In this document: in pieces, positions 8,470 to 27,662 of the stretch
Layout: the number at the start of each line of letters is the position of its first letter
Numbering within the stretch: position 1 is the first letter of the stretch
Assembly (NCBI GenBank): GCA_025362055.1
Contig: JANYIM010000088.1
Coordinates: 1-35,895 of the forward strand
DNA length: 35,895 bases
Origin: Bacteroidota bacterium
GTDB taxonomy: Bacteria; Bacteroidota; Bacteroidia; Chitinophagales; Chitinophagaceae
Direction: 5' to 3'
Notes under the pieces: model-generated
Databases searched by the model: none
Told to the model about the DNA's origin: nothing
What the model saw: only the letters and a program-made list of their open reading frames with translations
Made by a program: the position numbers and the translations under genes

Positions 8470-9351
8470 ATGTCAACAACAGCGATACCAACAAATACCA
8501 AATGGTGGAACGGCGGAAGAAGCCCTTTCAATGCCAGTTATGGTAAAGTGATGATGTGGTACTTTTTAATGAGTGACGCTTTCACTTTCGGGGCATTTTT
8601 GATCAGTTACGGAACGATCCGCTTTAGCGTGAACAATTGGGCCGACCCTAACCATGTATTTAATGCCTTTCCTTTTGCAGGCCATGCTAACCTGCCTTTG
8701 GCATTCGTAAGTTTGATGACCTTTATCCTGATCTTCAGTTCTGTTACAATGGTATTAGCTGTGCATGAAGGCCATAAGATGAATCGCAAGGGAGTAGAAA
8801 AATACATGATACTAACGATCTTTGGTGGCCTTGCGTTCTTAAGTTGCCAGGCATGGGAGTGGACGCACTTATTGACAGGCGAACACGTAGCATTACTAAA
8901 AGACGGAACATTATCGATCTTACCAACTACCGTAAAATCTAATCCCTGGGGGCTGGAAGTGGCGCATGATGCGATGTTGGCGGCATTACAAAAAACACCT
9001 CACGATCAACTCGCTTCTATTGCAGCAACTTTGCACCATGGGGGAGAAGCGGTTGTACATGATGTAAAAACGATGTCAGATGCGGAATTGATAAGCCTTA
9101 TTCAGTCATCCGACCTGCATGTATCAAACCCAGGCCCGATCGCTTTTGGCGGATATTTCTTTGGAATAACCGGCTTTCATGGTTTCCACGTATTCAGTGG
9201 TGTGATCATTAATATTGTAATGCTGGCTAAAACAAAACTGGGCCATTTTGACCAGCGCGGGCATTATGAAATGATCGAGAAGGCCGGACTGTACTGGCAC
9301 TTTGTGGACCTGGTTTGGGTATTTGTATTCTTATGTTTTTACCTGATATAA
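8470..9351 (+). CDS. Cytochrome c oxidase subunit III (long copy with an inserted soluble segment)
   Basis: COX3 signatures ITGFHGFHVFSGVIIN and YWHFVDLVWVFVFLCFYLI; ATG at 8470 preferred over the non-ATG-region 8431 ORF start. Confidence 0.9.
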   Translation: MSTTAIPTNTKWWNGGRSPFNASYGKVMMWYFLMSDAFTFGAFLISYGTIRFSVNNWADPNHVFNAFPFAGHANLPLAFVSLMTFILIFSSVTMVLAVHEGHKMNRKGVEKYMILTIFGGLAFLSCQAWEWTHLLTGEHVALLKDGTLSILPTTVKSNPWGLEVAHDAMLAALQKTPHDQLASIAATLHHGGEAVVHDVKTMSDAELISLIQSSDLHVSNPGPIAFGGYFFGITGFHGFHVFSGVIINIVMLAKTKLGHFDQRGHYEMIEKAGLYWHFVDLVWVFVFLCFYLI

Positions 9352-9384
9352 CTTAATAGTAACGATAATCAATAAACGCATTTT

Positions 9385-9819
9385 ATGAGTTCAGCAGCAA
9401 CATCAGCGGATATCAGCCTGGCACCGGAACATGGCTCAGGCACAAAACGAATATGGAAGACATTTTGGTTATTGTCTGTTTTAACGGTTATTGAGTTGGG
9501 TATTGGTTTAACCATCTATAATATTCACAAAGGCGCCAATCCCAATCCAACACTTGTACTCGCTTTCAAAGGAATGGTTTGCATTTTAACACTGGCCAAA
9601 GCCTACTATATTGTTTCGATCTTTATGCATCTTGGTGATGAGATAAGAAATATGATCATGACGATCGTAGTGCCACTTTGCCTTTTCATCTGGTTCATTA
9701 CCGCCTTTTTATGGGATGGTAATAGCTGGAAGATACTGAGGAACACCAATGCCGGCAGCCGCCCTGCACAAACAGAACAGCACCAGCCAGCGGCGATCGA
9801 GAAGGGTGAAAAACCATAA
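9385..9819 (+). CDS. Cytochrome c oxidase subunit IV-like (prokaryotic COX4 family)
   Basis: Three-TM small protein at end of cox operon; KAYYIVSIFMHL. Confidence 0.85.
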   Translation: MSSAATSADISLAPEHGSGTKRIWKTFWLLSVLTVIELGIGLTIYNIHKGANPNPTLVLAFKGMVCILTLAKAYYIVSIFMHLGDEIRNMIMTIVVPLCLFIWFITAFLWDGNSWKILRNTNAGSRPAQTEQHQPAAIEKGEKP

Positions 9820-9856
9820 GGTATATTTTAAGCAGGAACGTTTAAAAATATTATGA

Positions 9857-9886
9857 ACCATTCGCCTGACCGCGGATGGTTTTTGT
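9857..9886 (+). terminator. Rho-independent terminator after the cox operon
   Basis: accattcgc-ctgacc-gcggatggt (9-bp stem, one GT wobble) followed by tttttg. Confidence 0.65.
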
Positions 9887-9940
9887 TTATTATTTATTTG
9901 GATCTCATTGATGTAAATTTGTAGCCGTAGTAAAGAAATT

Positions 9941-10732
9941 ATGAGTAAGAAATCGATATTAGCCCTAATGCTGGCAATACTATTGCCATTGACCGGGTAT
10001 TTTTTGGTAAAATACTATAGCAAGGATGCCGTACAAATGCCTGGGAAATATTTTGAACCCGACAGTGTGATCGTAAAAGAAAAGAACGGGAAAACGACCA
10101 CGGATACTATCTGGCATAAAGTAAAGAACATTCATTTTGTGAACCAGCTGGGCAAGCATACTTCTTTGGATGACCTGCATGGAAAAGTATTGGTCATTGA
10201 TTTCTTTTTTTCAAGATGCCCATCGCTATGCCCGGGACTTGCCCTCAGAATGAAAAGACTACAAGACTCATTTAAACAGAATGACAGTATTGTGCAATTC
10301 ATCTCCATAACTGTTGATCCGTTGCACGACTCTGTGCCGCAATTGCGAAAATTTGCTGATCGTTTTAATGCCAACCACGATACCTGGTGGTTTGTAACCG
10401 GCGACAAAAAAGAGATATATGATTTTGCTTTGAATGAACTTAAGGCCGGACTTGCAGATACGGAAGTGGATACTGCATTCATCCATACTCCATACTTTTT
10501 TTTACTCGACAGCAACAGGATCGTAAGGGGGTATTATGACGGATTTGATTCGGTTAAACAGGCAAAATTAGTAAGAGATATCCCGCTATTAATGCTTGAA
10601 CGGGACAAAAAAGCCCCCTCTCTTTTCAGGGACTTTATCCCCTTATTGCCCGTTATCTTTTTTGGCATCGGCATCGTATTCATTATGGCGGTCATTTTTA
10701 CCCGGAAAAAAAATAGAGAAAATAAAAAATGA
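9941..10732 (+). CDS. SCO1/SenC family copper chaperone
   Basis: Thioredoxin-like fold with CPSLCP motif, TVDP, and conserved His in FIHTPYFFLLD. Confidence 0.93.
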   Translation: MSKKSILALMLAILLPLTGYFLVKYYSKDAVQMPGKYFEPDSVIVKEKNGKTTTDTIWHKVKNIHFVNQLGKHTSLDDLHGKVLVIDFFFSRCPSLCPGLALRMKRLQDSFKQNDSIVQFISITVDPLHDSVPQLRKFADRFNANHDTWWFVTGDKKEIYDFALNELKAGLADTEVDTAFIHTPYFFLLDSNRIVRGYYDGFDSVKQAKLVRDIPLLMLERDKKAPSLFRDFIPLLPVIFFGIGIVFIMAVIFTRKKNRENKK

Positions 10733-11316
10733 TGTTACCCGCTACCTTTAATAAGAATGATAAAAAAGCAAGGCTTTTAATTTATACCGTATCGATCGTG
10801 GTATTTGCAGCAGTGGCATCGCTAAGTAAATACAAACTGAATGTTAACTTAGGATTTAATGTTCACATCTTTGCCGTTGCAAATGCCATTATCAATTCCC
10901 TGGTAATGATATTGCTTTGCGCAGGCCTTGTTACGGCTAAACAAAAAAAATACCGGGTGCATAAAAAGATAATGCTTACTGCCATCGTATTATCTGTGCT
11001 ATTCCTGGTTTCTTATATCGCCCATCACTTATTGGCAGGCGAAACAAAATTTGGTGACATTAATCATGATGGAATACTTAGTGACGAAGAAAAATTACAG
11101 GCGGGCGGATTAAGGATATTTTATTATATCATCCTGCTCACGCATATCCCATTGGCAGCAATTATGCTCCCGTTCATCTTGTTTACTGCCTACCGGGCAC
11201 TGACTGGCGAATACGAAGCACATAAAAAATTAGTAAGGATCACCTGGCCGATATGGTTTTATGTTGCTTTTTCGGGGATCATGGTTTATTTGCTGATAAG
11301 CCCTTACTATAATTGA
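10729..11316 (+). CDS. DUF420 family membrane protein with an EF-hand-like loop
   Basis: Four-TM protein following SCO1 with overlapping start/stop (aatgatg); YIAHHLLAGETKFG...YYIILLTHIPLAAIMLPFIL. Confidence 0.85.
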   Translation: MMLPATFNKNDKKARLLIYTVSIVVFAAVASLSKYKLNVNLGFNVHIFAVANAIINSLVMILLCAGLVTAKQKKYRVHKKIMLTAIVLSVLFLVSYIAHHLLAGETKFGDINHDGILSDEEKLQAGGLRIFYYIILLTHIPLAAIMLPFILFTAYRALTGEYEAHKKLVRITWPIWFYVAFSGIMVYLLISPYYN

Positions 11317-13585: not shown

Positions 13586-14371
13586 ATGAATACCGTTATT
13601 GTTCCTGTTGATTTTTCTCCCACATCCTTACACGCAGCCCGTTATGCTGCCCAGTTATTGGTAGGGCATTATGGTGTAACCCTGGTTTTGTACCATAGCT
13701 ATTCAAAGCCTTCAGAGGCTGAGAAGGCCCTGGCAGACCTGGAAAACCTGAAAGAGATATTGATGAAAGATCATATTGTGAAGATGGAAGTGCTGGCACA
13801 TCATGAAGATGATTTTGTAGATGGGCTGGAAAGGGCGGCAAGGCATCGTGTAGCCGACCTCGTGATCATGGGGATCACCGGAAAATCTGCACTGGCACAG
13901 GTTTTCTTTGGCAGCAATACACTAAAGATGGCAGAAACCAAAGCCTGCCCGGTTCTAATCGTTCCTGAAAACGCCTCCTTTGAGCCTATTAAGAATGTAA
14001 TGCTTACATCTGATTTTAAGAATACATTGAATTCTACACCATCTGGCCCTATCAAGGATTTCCTGGACGTATTTCACCCACAGTTGCATATTGTGAATGT
14101 AGATGAAGACCATTTCATTTCTCTTACAGAAAATTATGAAAAAGAGAAGCAGGACCTGAAACAATTATTTGCAGATTATAACCCGGAATTTTATTTCATG
14201 CGTTTATATGATGTAGATGAAGCATTGAATCTTTTTGCTGAAACCAGAAATATTGATATGATGATCGTTATTAAGAAAGACCATTCATTTCTTGGAAAAT
14301 TATTTAGGACAGACAGGACAAAAAAACTGACCTATCAAAGCAAGTTGCCCATTCTTGTGATGCATGAATAA
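13586..14371 (+). CDS. Universal stress protein (UspA family)
   Basis: VIVPVDFSPTSLHAARYAAQL and IMGITGKSALAQVFFGSNT. Confidence 0.92.
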   Translation: MNTVIVPVDFSPTSLHAARYAAQLLVGHYGVTLVLYHSYSKPSEAEKALADLENLKEILMKDHIVKMEVLAHHEDDFVDGLERAARHRVADLVIMGITGKSALAQVFFGSNTLKMAETKACPVLIVPENASFEPIKNVMLTSDFKNTLNSTPSGPIKDFLDVFHPQLHIVNVDEDHFISLTENYEKEKQDLKQLFADYNPEFYFMRLYDVDEALNLFAETRNIDMMIVIKKDHSFLGKLFRTDRTKKLTYQSKLPILVMHE

Positions 14372-14388: not shown

Positions 14389-14916
14389 TTAATTACCGCT
14401 GTCGGGGCCTGCGGCCGCCGACAGGGTGATTTCGTTTAACTGATGCACCAACTGGTGATCAGCGATGTTAAAGAATGATACTATAGCTTCGTATAAGCTA
14501 TCACGTACAACAATTAATAAATGCTTGTCTGTGCCCTGGTATACCAATCTTTCTGTTAAGGCCTTTATTGCTTCGTAAAGTCCATTTCGCTGCAGTTCCA
14601 GCTTTCCTGCTTCATCAATGATCACCCAATCACAACCGCTGGCCGATGCTTCCAGTAATACGGTATTGGCTTTTTCAAAACCTTTGCTGAAAAAATGATA
14701 TTGTCCAACTGATTGTAAAGGTTCTCTTGTGTTAGCAGGATATTTACATTCTATATCAAAAATTTCTTTTGTCCGGATATCAAAAATTTTCCTTGTGCCA
14801 TCAATATCGGGCATCAACACTCCGCCAATTTTGGCTGATACATGCTTATCACACCAATGCTGCAATTCACTGGTCTTGCCACTGTGGATGGGCCTTGAAA
14901 AAATAATAATGCTCAT
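14389..14916 (-). CDS. THEP1-like P-loop NTPase
   Basis: Walker A-like SRPIHSGKTSEL, WVIIDEAGKLEL (Walker B), GGVLMPDIDGTRKIFDIRTKE as in THEP1-type NTPases. Confidence 0.7.
   Translation of the reverse strand: MSIIIFSRPIHSGKTSELQHWCDKHVSAKIGGVLMPDIDGTRKIFDIRTKEIFDIECKYPANTREPLQSVGQYHFFSKGFEKANTVLLEASASGCDWVIIDEAGKLELQRNGLYEAIKALTERLVYQGTDKHLLIVVRDSLYEAIVSFFNIADHQLVHQLNEITLSAAAGPDSGN
14393..14425. repeat. Dispersed 33-bp palindromic repeat, copy A
   Basis: ttaccgctgtcggg-N8-ccgccgacagg; same sequence and spacing as copy B; overlaps 3' end of the NTPase ORF. Confidence 0.85.
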
Positions 14917-15998
14917 GCAGTTTTTTTGAAGGTCGGCTCTGTTATAGGTCCACCGGATCCTGCGGACTGATCATTATAAGTAAGCGACCAATGTATCAAT
15001 GTGCTAAGAAAAAAATCTAATCGTTTCCAACCTTTATATGGGCTACTTTTTTGCCAGGCGGTAGCAGTTAACTGTCTTAGTACGGGCAAAAAAGATAATG
15101 TCCTGGATACCTCTTCATTATATCGCCCTTCTTTTTTTTGTAAGAACTGTTTAATGAGCTTTGTAAGAAATGGATTGATGAGCAGGAACCAGATGATGAT
15201 CGCAGTAAGTGTCCAGCTGATCGTTTTTAAAACTGCCATCCATCCTTGCTTTGTACCAGAAGCAATGAAAAACATGGCAATCGACAGGGCTACAAGTATT
15301 GAAGCGAGTAACCATAATTTTTTCTTGTTGTTTTTTTTGTCCGGAATAACGGCATAGTCTTCCTTGCTGAAAGCAGTATCGTTTCTCCAATCCATTGGGG
15401 TATTGCCAATAGAAAAGCGGGTTACTATTTTCCAGGCTAACCAGGCAATGCAGACCCCTCCCGCCAGATAGATAAAGAGGTAGGTCCCAATTACCCATTG
15501 GCCACCATTAACTGCAGCCACTCCTAATTGTTTTACAACAGCTGCAACAAAAATGTCGGTTGCTTTCCAGATTGATTGTCCAAAGAATAGCGTGAGGATA
15601 AGCAATTGTTGTATTGCCGACTCAAGCATGGTAATGATACTAAGTAACAAAATACTAAGCGGGTTGATGCGAAAAAGATTGAATAAAGCATAACCTAAAA
15701 TGGCCTGGAAAGACACTGCAATGTAAGCGGGGAAAGGGGTGTAGGGGCTTACCATAGCCTTAATTATCAACACGAGCAAAAGACTTTTTAAGATCTCTTT
15801 GTATTGATGTTCAGAAATTTGTGCAATGAAACTGATTAAGATCACTGCCAGTCCGCCTACGACCAGACCTGTAAAAGGTATTTGCAAAGCATGCATGATG
15901 CCTCCCAGCCCCGATTCACTAAAAGCCCATAATGCGGTGAGCCGCTGAATAGCTAAAATGCGCTGTTCCCGGGATAAATTTTTATGATCGATATTCAT
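14913..15998 (-). CDS. Multi-pass membrane protein, unknown function; possible S-component-like transporter
   Basis: About 8 predicted hydrophobic segments; stop/start ATGA overlap with the downstream NTPase gene. Confidence 0.75.
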   Translation of the reverse strand: MNIDHKNLSREQRILAIQRLTALWAFSESGLGGIMHALQIPFTGLVVGGLAVILISFIAQISEHQYKEILKSLLLVLIIKAMVSPYTPFPAYIAVSFQAILGYALFNLFRINPLSILLLSIITMLESAIQQLLILTLFFGQSIWKATDIFVAAVVKQLGVAAVNGGQWVIGTYLFIYLAGGVCIAWLAWKIVTRFSIGNTPMDWRNDTAFSKEDYAVIPDKKNNKKKLWLLASILVALSIAMFFIASGTKQGWMAVLKTISWTLTAIIIWFLLINPFLTKLIKQFLQKKEGRYNEEVSRTLSFLPVLRQLTATAWQKSSPYKGWKRLDFFLSTLIHWSLTYNDQSAGSGGPITEPTFKKTA

Positions 15999-16210
15999 TG
16001 CAGTAAAATAAGCCTCCTGTTACAAAGATAAGCGCTGCGGCCCGACGGGATGGCTACCTTATTTAGTAAGCCATGTATTTGTCTGCTAACAGCCAATTTG
16101 TTATTTTTATCGTTGCTACACTTTTGCTGCCATGATAGTTCAACATTTTCATATGGAAATGAAGGGTAAAGTTTTGCAAAATGGTCCGCTGCGGACAAAA
16201 AATTAAAAAC

Positions 16211-16687
16211 ATGAGTACAGAAAATAAAGCATTTATGTTAGAGGCTATTCGCTTGTCGGTGGCCAACGTAGAAGAAGGCAAGGGTGGGCCTTTTGGTGCA
16301 GTGGTGGTTAAAGATGGAAAGATCATTGCGCGAGGTGCGAATGAAGTTACTTCCAGCAATGATCCTACGGCACATGCCGAGGTGGTGGCTATCAGGAATG
16401 CCTGCATTGCATTGAATAGTTTTCAGCTGGAAGGCTGTGAGATATATACCAGTTGCGAACCTTGCCCCATGTGCCTGGGCGCTATCTATTGGGCGAGACC
16501 GGCAAAACTGTACTATGCCAATTCAAAAGAAGATGCGGCAAAAATACAATTTGATGATCAGTTCATTTATGAGGAGATCGCTAAACCTGTTAAAGAACGA
16601 AAATTATTTACGCGGCAAATGTTCAGAGAAGAAGCATTGGAAGCGTTTAAAAAATGGAGCGAAAGTACCCTAAAAAAAGAATATTGA
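16211..16687 (+). CDS. Guanine deaminase / nucleoside deaminase (CMP/dCMP deaminase fold)
   Basis: HAEVVAIRNA and CEPCPMCLGAIYWAR zinc motifs; first gene of purine operon; TGATG overlap with xdhA. Confidence 0.88.
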   Translation: MSTENKAFMLEAIRLSVANVEEGKGGPFGAVVVKDGKIIARGANEVTSSNDPTAHAEVVAIRNACIALNSFQLEGCEIYTSCEPCPMCLGAIYWARPAKLYYANSKEDAAKIQFDDQFIYEEIAKPVKERKLFTRQMFREEALEAFKKWSESTLKKEY

Positions 16688-18186
16688 TGATCCGATTCAT
16701 ATTAAATAATCAGTTGGTAGAGACCGATCAGCGTACAGGCGGTACCGTTTTAGATTATGTACGGTATCACAAAAGACTGGTGGGAACAAAGATCGGGTGC
16801 CGTGAAGGTGATTGCGGTGCCTGTACTGTTTTGGTGGGAGATATGGAACATGGAAAACTGGTATATCGTTCTATGACCAGTTGCCTGATGCCATTGGGCA
16901 ATGCAAATGGCAAGCATATTGTTTCGGTGGAAGGGGTGAACCTGCCTGCCGACAGGAAAGGCAATACTGAATTATCTCCCGTACAACAGGCAATGGTTGA
17001 TACCAATGGAACGCAATGTGGATTTTGTACCATTGGTTTTGTAATGTCGTTGACAGGATTTGTACTGAATGAAAATGCAAAACAATATGAAGCGGCCATT
17101 GCTTCGATCGATGGAAATATTTGTCGTTGTACGGGATATAAATCCATTGAAAGAGCTGCGGCTATCCTTTCTCAAAAGATGGTAGATAAACCAGGAAAGG
17201 GAACCATTGAATGGCTGGTGGAGCAAAAATATATTCCTGCTTATTTCCAGGAAATAAAAGAGCGCTTACAACAATTAAAAGATTACACCGGCCTGAAGGC
17301 CGGTGCAATTCAGGCCGGTGCAATTCAAGGCGATGCAATTCAAGGCGATGCAATTCAGGCAAATACTCCTGGAGAAAAAATAATGTTTGGCGGTGGTACT
17401 GACCTGATTGTACAAAAGGCGTTGACGGTAAAAAAATCTGCTTTACAACATTTGTTTGATGATGCCCGGTTAAAAGAAATATCATTTGAGAATGAACAAT
17501 GCCATATTGGGGCTTCCGTAACAGTTACGCAATTCGCCGAATCGAAATTGATACAGGGATTCTTTCCTGACCTTGCAAAACACATCAAGCTTATTTCATC
17601 TACCCCTATCCGTAATATGGCTACGATGGCAGGCAATATCGTAAATGCTTCACCCATTGGGGACATGAGTATTTTCTTTTTATCATTGGATAGTGACCTG
17701 CAGCTTAGTAAGAATGGCAACAAAAGGGTCATTAAACTCAGGGATTTTTATAAAGCCTATAAGCAAACAGATAAAGCCCCGGATGAGATCATTGAAAAAA
17801 TTATTTTCACGCCACCGACAAATAGCTCGTTCAGTTTTGAGAAAGTATGCAAGCGTACACACCTGGATATTGCCAGTGTAAATTCGGCCTGCCAGGTTAA
17901 GTTGAATAAGGATGGAACCATTGCCGATATTCATTTAGCAGCAGGTGGTGTAGCACCTTTCCCCAAATACCTTACAAATACCATTGAATTTTTAAAAGCG
18001 AAGAAGATCAATAAAGAGATAATTGAAGAAGCTATTAAAATAATGAATGAAGAAATAGCACCGATCAGTGATGCAAGAGGAACAGAAACTTATAAACGAT
18101 TATTATTACGCCAATTATTTTTAGCGCATATGATATCATTGGATAAAAATTTAATCGTAACAGTTAAAGATATTTTACAAACATAA
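16687..18186 (+). CDS. xdhA: Xanthine dehydrogenase small subunit ([2Fe-2S] + FAD)
   Basis: GCREGDCGACTVLVG, CGFCTIGFVMS, GNICRCTGYKSIERA, MFGGGTDLIVQ, MAGNIVNASPIGD. Confidence 0.94.
   Translation: MIRFILNNQLVETDQRTGGTVLDYVRYHKRLVGTKIGCREGDCGACTVLVGDMEHGKLVYRSMTSCLMPLGNANGKHIVSVEGVNLPADRKGNTELSPVQQAMVDTNGTQCGFCTIGFVMSLTGFVLNENAKQYEAAIASIDGNICRCTGYKSIERAAAILSQKMVDKPGKGTIEWLVEQKYIPAYFQEIKERLQQLKDYTGLKAGAIQAGAIQGDAIQGDAIQANTPGEKIMFGGGTDLIVQKALTVKKSALQHLFDDARLKEISFENEQCHIGASVTVTQFAESKLIQGFFPDLAKHIKLISSTPIRNMATMAGNIVNASPIGDMSIFFLSLDSDLQLSKNGNKRVIKLRDFYKAYKQTDKAPDEIIEKIIFTPPTNSSFSFEKVCKRTHLDIASVNSACQVKLNKDGTIADIHLAAGGVAPFPKYLTNTIEFLKAKKINKEIIEEAIKIMNEEIAPISDARGTETYKRLLLRQLFLAHMISLDKNLIVTVKDILQT
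17286..17305. repeat. Perfect palindrome CACCGGCC-TGAA-GGCCGGTG inside xdhA
   Basis: 8-bp stem, TGAA loop, overlapping the start of the 15-bp tandem array. Confidence 0.9.
17298..17357 (+). repeat. Four tandem 15-bp units inside xdhA encoding AGAIQ/AGAIQ/GDAIQ/GDAIQ
   Basis: ggccggtgcaattca x2 then aggcgatgcaattca x2, read directly. Confidence 0.95.
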
Positions 18187-18237: not shown

Positions 18238-20505
18238 ATGAAAAACAATTCCGGAAATATCGATGCAGCAGGACATGTCACGGGCAGGTCAACCTACGTT
18301 GATGATATACCTGTAATGGAAGGCGTTTTGTTTGTAAAGGTCTTTGATTCACCCAATGCACATGGTAAGATAAAAAGCATTGACTTTTCTGCTGCAGAAC
18401 AAATGGAAGGTATTGTAAAGATATTTTCCTGCAAAGATGTTCCGGGAGAAAATCAAATTGGCGGTATCATTCCTGATGAACCATTGTTGGCGGATGGAGA
18501 AGTTCATTTCCAGGGACAACCCATCTTATTGATCGTAGCAGAAAATGAAGATGCCGCTGAAGAAGCGATAAAAGCGATAAAGATCGATATAGAACCACTC
18601 CCGGTTATCACTGACCCAAGAGAGGCGTTTAAGCAAGGTAAATTATTAAGTGTATCAAGAAAATTTGTAAAGGGAGATACTGGAAATGCATTTACAAAAT
18701 GCAAATACATTTTTGAAGGACGAACAGAATCGGGCGGACAAGAACAATTATACCTGGAAACACAAGGCGCATATGCGTACCCGATAGAACACAACAGCGT
18801 AAAGATTTTTTCCTCCACGCAGGGGCCTACCCAGGTGCAACGTACGGTGGCAAGGGTGCTTGGCCTTGGCATGAATAAAGTTGAAGTGGATGTACCCCGC
18901 CTTGGTGGCGGATTTGGTGGTAAGGAAGACCAGGCTTCTGCATGGGGTGCAATGGCAGCGATGACAGCATGGATATTAAAACGTCCGGCAAAATGTATTC
19001 CTCACCGTATGGAAGATATGCGCATGACGGGCAAAAGAAATCCTTACAGCAGCGATTATAAAATTGGGCTGGATGAAGGCTATAATATTATGGCCTACGA
19101 GGCAACCTTTTACCAGAACGGTGGCGCTGCGGCAGACCTGTCGCCTGCAATTTTGGAAAGAACCCTGTTTCATGCAACCAATAGTTATCATGTTCCTAAT
19201 GTAAATGTAACTGCACATTCCTGTAAAACAAACCTGCCTCCCAATACAGCCTTTCGTGGTTTTGGCGGCCCACAGGGAATGTTTGTGATAGAAGCTGCGA
19301 TAGACCATGCTGCGAGAAGTTTAGGGATCGATACCACGCTTATACAAAGAAAGAACATGATGGATAACGGTGATGAATTTCCATATGGCCAGATCGTTAC
19401 AGAATGCGAAGCAAAGCATTGCTGGGATGAAGTGGTGAACGCGTACGATATTGAAGCAATTAAAAAAGAGGTCAACACATTCAATCAGCAAAATACATTT
19501 CATAAAAAAGGGCTTTCAATGATGCCGGTATGTTTTGGTATTTCATTTACCAACACTATGATGAACCAGGCAAGGGCATTGGTACATGTATACTCGGATG
19601 GAAGTGTAGGAGTAAGCACAGGCGCCGTTGAAATGGGCCAGGGCGTAAATTCAAAAATGATACAGGTAGCGGCAAAATGTTTTGGTATTGCTGCTGAAAG
19701 AATAAAATTAGAAAGCACTAATACTACAAGGGTAGCCAATACATCTCCTTCGGCAGCCAGTTCCACAGCTGATCTGAATGGGAAAGCATTGCTGGATGCC
19801 TGTGATCAAATCAAAGAACGGCTGTTCTCCTTTATTAAAACAGAGTTAACAGGCAATGAAGAAGAGCGTGTGGAGATAAAAGAAGAGGTGGTGTACATCA
19901 ATGACGAGGCTTCGGTGTTTAACTGGAAGAATTTAATACAACAGGCATTCATTAAACGGATCAACCTCAGTGCCAAGGGGCATTACGCCACACCTTATAT
20001 TTATTATGATAAGACAACTGAAAAAGGCCATCCTTTCGCCTATCATGTTTATGGCACAGCACTGACGATAGTAACGGTTGACTGTATACGAGGAACCTAT
20101 GAAATTGATGAAGTGGACGTAGTGCATGATTTTGGCACCAGCATCAACCGGGATGTCGATCTTGGCCAGTGCGAAGGCGGTATCGTACAAGGTATTGGGT
20201 GGATGACGATGGAAGAAGTGGTGTACAATGAAAATGGAAAATTATTATCCAATGCATTGTCAACTTATAAGATCCCGGACATTTACGCAGTGCCTAAAAA
20301 AATAAATGTACATTTTTTAAATACTGATGGAAGCGACCTGGCAATTTTTAAATCAAAAGCAGTTGGCGAACCACCACTAATGTATGGTATTGGTGCATAT
20401 TTCGCCATTCGGAATGCTGTACTGGCGTTCAATGCAAAGGCAAGCGTGCCGTATGAAGCACCCATTACTCCTGAAAAAGTGTTGATGGGATTGTATGGAA
20501 ATTAA
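18238..20505 (+). CDS. xdhB: Xanthine dehydrogenase molybdopterin subunit
   Basis: LGGGFGGKEDQA, NTAFRGFGGPQG, GAVEMGQGVNSKM and KAVGEPPLMYG catalytic-Glu motif. Confidence 0.95.
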   Translation: MKNNSGNIDAAGHVTGRSTYVDDIPVMEGVLFVKVFDSPNAHGKIKSIDFSAAEQMEGIVKIFSCKDVPGENQIGGIIPDEPLLADGEVHFQGQPILLIVAENEDAAEEAIKAIKIDIEPLPVITDPREAFKQGKLLSVSRKFVKGDTGNAFTKCKYIFEGRTESGGQEQLYLETQGAYAYPIEHNSVKIFSSTQGPTQVQRTVARVLGLGMNKVEVDVPRLGGGFGGKEDQASAWGAMAAMTAWILKRPAKCIPHRMEDMRMTGKRNPYSSDYKIGLDEGYNIMAYEATFYQNGGAAADLSPAILERTLFHATNSYHVPNVNVTAHSCKTNLPPNTAFRGFGGPQGMFVIEAAIDHAARSLGIDTTLIQRKNMMDNGDEFPYGQIVTECEAKHCWDEVVNAYDIEAIKKEVNTFNQQNTFHKKGLSMMPVCFGISFTNTMMNQARALVHVYSDGSVGVSTGAVEMGQGVNSKMIQVAAKCFGIAAERIKLESTNTTRVANTSPSAASSTADLNGKALLDACDQIKERLFSFIKTELTGNEEERVEIKEEVVYINDEASVFNWKNLIQQAFIKRINLSAKGHYATPYIYYDKTTEKGHPFAYHVYGTALTIVTVDCIRGTYEIDEVDVVHDFGTSINRDVDLGQCEGGIVQGIGWMTMEEVVYNENGKLLSNALSTYKIPDIYAVPKKINVHFLNTDGSDLAIFKSKAVGEPPLMYGIGAYFAIRNAVLAFNAKASVPYEAPITPEKVLMGLYGN

Positions 20506-26693: not shown

Positions 26694-27662
26694 ATGGGTG
26701 TTTGGAAATTCATACTTGATAAGCTAAGCGCTGGTATAAATGTAATGTTATTGCATGTGCTGGAAAGCGAGGGCAGTTCTCCCGGCAGGCAGGGATTTAA
26801 AATGGCCGTTGCTGCTGATGGTACATTCAATGGAACAATTGGCGGTGGCATCATGGAACATAAGCTGGTAGAAAAAGCAAAGCAGCAGCTGGGTGATAAA
26901 GTTGATAAGATCGAATTGATGCGCCAGTTTCATGATAAGCAGCCAGTTTCAAATCAATCCGGAATGATCTGCAGCGGCAGCCAGTTGAATGTTTTTATTC
27001 CTTTATCACCTGCAGATAAACCGGCCATTGCTTCTATCGTGAATGACAGACAACAATTCATTGAACTTTCTCCAAAAGGAATTGCCATCCGGGGATCATC
27101 TACACAGGATAAGAATATCAACCTGCAATTTATTTCAGAAGAAGAATGGTTGTACACCGAAAAAATAAACCGGCAACAGGTGATACATATCATTGGCGGC
27201 GGACATGTGAGTCTGGCCTTGTCCGAATTAATGTCCTTCCTTGGTTTTTTCATCAAAGTATATGATGACAGGCCGGGGTTGAATACGATGCAGGAAAATA
27301 ATTTTGCCAATGAAAAACATTTCATTGAAGATTACCAGCAGTTAGGCAAAACCATCAATGCTTCAAAATATGATCATGTTGTGATCATTACATTTGGTTA
27401 TCGTTCAGATAAGATCGTATTGAAAGAATTACTGGATAAGGAATTTGCTTATATCGGCCTTATTGGAAGCGATAAAAAAACCGAAACGCTTTTCAAAGAA
27501 CTCGAAGAAGAAGGCATCTCTCCCGAAAAATGGAAACATGTATTTGCCCCGATCGGCATCAACATATTTAGTAAGACGGCGCCCGAAATTGCAGTGAGTA
27601 TTGCGGCAGAGATCATCAGGGAAAAGAATAAAGAACTGCCGACTGGAAGAAGCGATAATTAA
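26694..27662 (+). CDS. xdhC: XdhC/CoxI family molybdenum-cofactor insertion protein
   Basis: ESEGSSPGRQGFKMAV, GTIGGGIMEHKLVE, HIIGGGHVSLALSELM, YIGLIGSDKKTETLF. Confidence 0.92.
   Translation: MGVWKFILDKLSAGINVMLLHVLESEGSSPGRQGFKMAVAADGTFNGTIGGGIMEHKLVEKAKQQLGDKVDKIELMRQFHDKQPVSNQSGMICSGSQLNVFIPLSPADKPAIASIVNDRQQFIELSPKGIAIRGSSTQDKNINLQFISEEEWLYTEKINRQQVIHIIGGGHVSLALSELMSFLGFFIKVYDDRPGLNTMQENNFANEKHFIEDYQQLGKTINASKYDHVVIITFGYRSDKIVLKELLDKEFAYIGLIGSDKKTETLFKELEEEGISPEKWKHVFAPIGINIFSKTAPEIAVSIAAEIIREKNKELPTGRSDN

Follow-up and report, generated by a model that had tools for sequence, protein, structure and literature searches.

A membrane protein and THEP1-type NTPase gene pair of Bacteroidota as a candidate importer of preformed molybdenum cofactor

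A membrane protein gene (TM) and the overlapping gene of a P-loop NTPase (NT), identified in a Chitinophagaceae genome and conserved in relatives across Bacteroidota, map beside unrelated molybdoenzymes, mostly in genomes lacking the genes for molybdenum cofactor (Moco) biosynthesis. From an analysis that is computational throughout, we infer that TM–NT is rather likely to be a membrane importer, with an ECF-like TM, salvaging preformed cofactor at the molybdopterin level, most likely Mo-molybdopterin. It is probably the first candidate system for the import of ready-made Moco. More tentatively, we propose that the pair could represent a new importer class for finished Moco, in which an ECF-like S(-T) membrane protein is combined with a THEP1-type NTPase replacing the ABC ATPases.

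The gene pair and its divergent neighbours

The window, namely the whole stretch of 35,895 nucleotides analysed here (contig JANYIM010000088.1), had been described in a first-pass annotation as encoding a membrane protein and a P-loop NTPase which overlap by ATGA and are divergent from a purine operon. Both predicted open reading frames were confirmed on the minus strand at the coordinates proposed, with the ATGA overlap at positions 14913-14916. The relevant features are:

14913-15998, minus strand: TM, 361-aa integral membrane protein of no known family, core of the module
14389-14916, minus strand: NT, P-loop NTPase of THEP1 type, 175 aa, sharing ATGA with the TM gene
15408-15998, minus strand: TM N-terminal domain (residues 1-197), six predicted helices, ECF S-component-like
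14979-15326, minus strand: TM C-terminal domain (about residues 225-340), hydrophobic helices followed by a long helix; may serve for coupling, like a T-component
15999-16210, no strand assigned: intergenic region between TM and the divergent purine operon, without known riboswitch
16211-16687, plus strand: guanine-deaminase-like deaminase, with which the divergent purine operon begins
16684-18186, plus strand: XdhA, 2Fe-2S/FAD subunit of xanthine dehydrogenase (XDH), a neighbour putatively served by the module
18238-20505, plus strand: XdhB, Moco-binding subunit, with the active-site motifs GGGFGGK, FRGFGGPQG and KAVGEPP intact
26694-27662, plus strand: XdhC, Moco-binding insertion chaperone of the XDH operon

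TM is separated from the ATG of the deaminase (16211) by about 212 bp, and the divergent operon continues in the order deaminase, XdhA, XdhB, allantoinase, allantoicase, urate oxidase, OHCU decarboxylase/HIUase, DUF6986 and XdhC. As judged by reading its active-site motifs, the XDH of the window looks intact. No Moco riboswitch was found upstream of TM, an Rfam search of 15999-16210 returning zero matches. On the other side of the pair, a two-domain universal-stress-protein-like open reading frame (13586-14371) is convergent with NT, and is retained beside the pair in two further loci (L001, L002).

The genome from which the window derives (completeness 88%) also carries, on contig C245, a second molybdenum operon with the order MobA-FdhD-small protein-FdhF (L112:7651-11824). 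The small protein (L112:9135-9509) belongs to a conserved type of about 122-150 aa, located between FdhD and the formate-dehydrogenase-type protein also in the c5 members L026-L029, L032, L039 and L004.

Conservation of the pair and its genomic contexts

TM homologues were found in 20 of the 200 Chitinophagaceae genomes sampled, and a wider sample of the rest of the phylum yielded about 20 further genomes with full-length TM and others with short or split forms; weak matches in G218, G344 and G474 were left out of the TM-positive set. NT lies directly downstream of TM in all 20 Chitinophagaceae loci, and at L034, L036, L037 and L041 the two are fused into a single open frame; the pairing is therefore beyond chance. 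Of the 26 loci from the wider phylum, 12 have NT close to TM and 14 do not, so that TM represents the constant part, or core, of the module, and NT may act in trans or be dispensable in some lineages. In the draft contig of L004, the TM gene (10001-11046) is broken by a frame change near its start; the copies of its relatives are intact. Plasmid searches gave zero matches.

A molybdoenzyme gene or a gene for MobA, FdhD or XdhC occurs within 10 kb of TM in 34 of the 46 sampled loci (16/20 in the family, 18/26 in the phylum), against a chance expectation that we estimate at a few per cent for a genome with a few molybdenum loci. Specifically, in the family, where the molybdenum genes are almost always direct neighbours of TM, XdhA, usually with XdhB, is divergent from TM in 7 of 20 loci, and MobA, in most cases together with FdhD and a protein of formate dehydrogenase type, is co-directional with it in 9 of 20. 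Beyond the family, TM stands beside a Psr-like reductase, Nap-type operons (NapD/NapGH), MobA alone or XDH. Since these enzymes are unrelated to each other, the cofactor appears as their common denominator. The survey thus found the co-occurrence with molybdoenzymes whose absence would have spoken against the first-pass annotation, and, together with the genome-level data given below, lends strong support to its guess of an undescribed system supplying such enzymes.

The same contexts bear on the possibility that TM–NT transports a purine or an intermediate of the xanthine pathway, as its divergent orientation to the purine operon, seen in the window and in close relatives as well, might suggest. 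Nearly half of the family loci are instead at MobA (mostly MobA-FdhD-FdhF), free of purine genes, and the loci of the phylum include Psr and Nap operons. With formate dehydrogenase, Psr or Nap loci accounting for about half of all contexts, a purine cargo is extremely improbable, and a purine transporter was rejected on account of the many TM contexts that contain no purine genes.

Cofactor biosynthesis and molybdoenzymes in TM-carrying genomes

MoaC was detected in 97 of the 200 Chitinophagaceae genomes, namely in 1 of the 20 with TM versus 96 of the 180 without it (p = 2e-5, Fisher's test, phylogeny ignored). Of the 43 TM-positive genomes of the whole phylum sample, 10 had MoaA above its cut-off, 11 had MoeA and 2 had MoaE. 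Draft quality does not explain these absences, because three single-contig TM-positive genomes (G172, G318 and G325) contain molybdoenzymes and lack MoaA, MoaC, MoaE and MoeA altogether. In addition, in each of three genera (g1, g22 and g81) one genome carries TM and a sister genome carries MoaC, an alternation that speaks for several replacements rather than for a single coincidence passed on by descent. The earlier remark that adjacency is the only functional link is superseded by this genome-level pattern, which adds a further one.

Loss of the pathway is not uniform. Among MoaC-positive genomes, MoaE is present in 2 of 10 with TM versus 73 of 80 controls without it (p = 3e-6, Fisher's test, phylogeny ignored). 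Eight TM-positive genomes keep MoaA, MoaC and MoeA and lack MoaE, so import would not always be paired with complete loss. MoaA-MoaC-MOSC-MoeA-MobA operons occur in TM-positive genomes of other families (L115:7313-11150; L117:7562-11320), and no MoaD or MoaE was recognisable in these two loci as read; an alternative molybdopterin-synthase step is possible in such operons.

Clear molybdoenzymes, scored as canonical XDH or full-length DMSOR-family matches, were found in 18 of 20 TM-positive Chitinophagaceae, of which one is MoaC-positive (G166), versus 2 of 60 genomes without TM and MoaC. In the MoaC-negative genomes of the rest of the phylum, full-length DMSOR proteins were present in 9 of 14 with TM versus 2 of 66 without. 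From the DMSOR counts we excluded PF01568 matches of about 1000 aa that align to part of the profile only, which are probably Moco-free alternative complex III subunits. TM-positive genomes of this kind thus appear, by gene content, to have kept molybdoenzymes for which they could not build the cofactor.

As to the two family controls with clear molybdoenzymes, the missing MoaC of G034 looks like a gap, since MoaD/MoaE/MoeB-like proteins follow its FdhF, and the completeness of G044 is only 83%. IorB-like homologues of molybdenum hydroxylases form a separate group, occurring in about 17 of the 60 Chitinophagaceae without TM and MoaC (G129, G022, G023, G067 and others; L099-L104, L109). The GE motif is kept in those read, both in genomes without TM (L099, L100) and in a TM-positive one (L105). 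Either another route exists, therefore, or the IorB-like proteins are not Moco-dependent, and TM leaves these orphan enzymes unexplained.

The gene inventory also weighs on the nature of the cargo. An importer of high affinity for molybdate (or tungstate), in carriers making Moco by an unrecognised biosynthetic route, would be consistent with the molybdoenzyme neighbourhoods, with the retention of MoeA and MoaA/C in some TM-positive genomes and with ModA, which is over its cut-off in none of the 20 TM-positive Chitinophagaceae. Most carriers, however, lack MoaA, MoaC, MoaE and MoeA together, so that molybdate import alone would be of no help to them unless they had an entirely new pathway for using it; moreover, TM and MoaC are anticorrelated, whereas every one of the 22 genomes with ModA also has MoaC. 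On these grounds we regard a molybdate importer as unlikely. The known systems ModABC, WtpABC and TupABC likewise serve molybdoenzymes and map beside molybdenum genes, but their proteins differ from TM and NT, and they import oxyanions, which are useful only with Moco biosynthesis (PMC6147048).

Import of an early precursor, such as cyclic pyranopterin monophosphate (cPMP) or another pterin, would agree with the loss of MoaA and MoaC from most carriers; most carriers also lack MoaE and MoeA, and could not complete the cofactor from cPMP, and we consider this reading very unlikely. From the earlier list of substrates (purine, molybdate or other), the data thus speak against the first two and favour finished cofactor. 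Specifically, Mo-molybdopterin that arrives from outside and is finished inside the cell would be the best fit, because MobA and FdhD are kept beside TM. The lack of ModA in the TM-positive Chitinophagaceae speaks for cofactor import as well.

Protein features and a model for cofactor import

The earlier THEP1-like label of NT is borne out both by profile search (NTPase_1, PF03266: 3.9e-9, 37 bits, curated cut-off 23.9) and by fold. The AlphaFold model (pLDDT 88.7) matched THEP1 in Foldseek searches (1ye8: E 2.9e-6, TM-score 0.67; 2i3b: 7.1e-6). A PF03266 match at E <= 0.1 was obtained for all 22 NT relatives; the match of NT to DUF2478 (PF10649) reached 19 bits, below the curated cut-off of 22.3. 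In the 22 aligned NT sequences, GK of Walker A and DExG...E of the Walker B region are invariant. NT is thus a member of the THEP1/NTPCR family (PF03266; PDB 1ye8, 2i3b), from which it differs in its coupling, or fusion, to a membrane protein, in its link with molybdenum loci and in the first glycine of Walker A, which is replaced by Arg in the NT of the window and is also missing in some relatives.

In the case of TM, no Pfam or NCBIfam family was matched. In the TM alignment, 21 of the 22 invariant columns (M1 included) fall in the N-terminal domain, which suggests that this domain carries the function-specific residues; at other loci it occurs as a stand-alone protein of about 200 aa (profile match E=6e-22). 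The AlphaFold model, built from an alignment of five sequences, has a pLDDT of 70 overall, with six N-terminal helices, and of about 60-78 in the C-terminal domain. Foldseek found nothing significant for it in the PDB, including zero solved ECF structures, and searching the sequences of the PDB with a profile of TM returned nothing credible. Modelling both proteins, as had been suggested at the outset, was therefore informative for NT and gave a moderate model, with zero PDB matches, for TM.

Further indications came from five Nap-type operons (L093-L097) in which TM is replaced by a roughly 200-aa S-like protein homologous to its N-terminal domain. In these operons the S-like gene is followed by that of a CbiQ-like T protein of about 180 aa, a TonB-dependent receptor is also encoded, and NT is present in three of the five. 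Three of the four T-like proteins tested matched ECF_T_CbiQ (TIGR02454) at 2.9e-5 to 2e-3, far below the curated cut-off, and in a profile comparison homology between the TM C-terminal domain and the separate T-like protein was not significant. The receptor, mapped at L093:9651-11570 and likewise beside the Nap-type genes in L094-L097, is a candidate outer-membrane route for the cargo. At L098, a single 625-aa open frame (8561-10438) combines an S-like N-terminus, a T-like middle part and a C-terminal NTPase, and adjoins MobA and a Psr-like reductase.

All together, TM resembles the ECF-type transporters (S-component, EcfT/CbiQ and EcfA/A') in its small, predicted six-helix membrane domain, in the separate or fused T-like protein with its sub-threshold CbiQ similarity and in a vitamin-like cargo predicted from the gene neighbours. 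It differs from them in that its loci carry a THEP1-type NTPase where ABC ATPases would be expected, none of the latter being recognised by eye among the genes neighbouring TM in the family and phylum loci, and in that TM has neither a profile match above cut-off nor a match among solved structures. Relatives of the S-like domain gave sub-threshold matches to the S-component families YkoE (PF09819) and Trep_Strep (PF09605); no S-component profile exceeded its cut-off, the best value being 20.9 versus 25.2 bits for PF09819 in a relative, and the TM of the window had zero matches. An ECF-like architecture is thus a lead, short of proof of membership.

On the basis of these data, we propose the following model. 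The cofactor would cross the outer membrane through the TonB-dependent receptor in some operons and be bound by the N-terminal domain of TM as by an ECF S-component; the C-terminal domain would couple TM to NT, which would either power transport or process or trap the cargo. Inside the cell, the imported cofactor could be used directly, via XdhC in the case of XDH; alternatively, MobA, encoded next to TM, could turn it into MGD, with sulfuration by FdhD. The beneficiaries would be bacteria in which Moco biosynthesis has been lost or is kept incompletely.

A membrane-bound complex that handles Moco (insertion, sulfuration, storage or protection) and transports nothing would also account for the fusions and the operon linkage to molybdoenzymes and MobA/FdhD, and NT does resemble small P-loop factors, its relatives showing weak similarity to MobB. 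This proposal leaves unexplained both the source of cofactor in genomes devoid of the biosynthetic genes and the TonB-dependent receptor of the split operons, and the conserved domain consists, in the AlphaFold model, of several membrane-embedded helices; we therefore judge it improbable.

Import of finished cofactor has a parallel in Caenorhabditis elegans, in which uptake of external, mature Moco from the diet is established (PMC9793310); that case differs in concerning an animal, with no transporter named and the crossing of membranes stated as unknown (PMC9793310). In Proteobacteria, a 2025 paper speculated that molybdopterin might be taken up by outer-membrane proteins of the T11SS, which is a different system (PMC12282271). 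Our search of mostly open-access literature turned up no importer of Moco or molybdopterin.

In 2018, a survey counted about 305 bacteria with molybdoenzymes and without a complete Moco pathway, posed them as an open problem, proposed either new biosynthetic parts or Mo-independent enzymes, and called for tests (PMC6147048). Beside these two proposals, the import of finished cofactor is a third, testable answer to the orphan-molybdoenzyme problem. If it is true, many 'orphan' molybdoenzymes would be active, and bacteria could drop the whole Moco pathway and yet keep their molybdoenzymes. Moco, unstable and supposedly private, would then be exchanged among bacteria like vitamin B12, as a shared 'vitamin' of the community.
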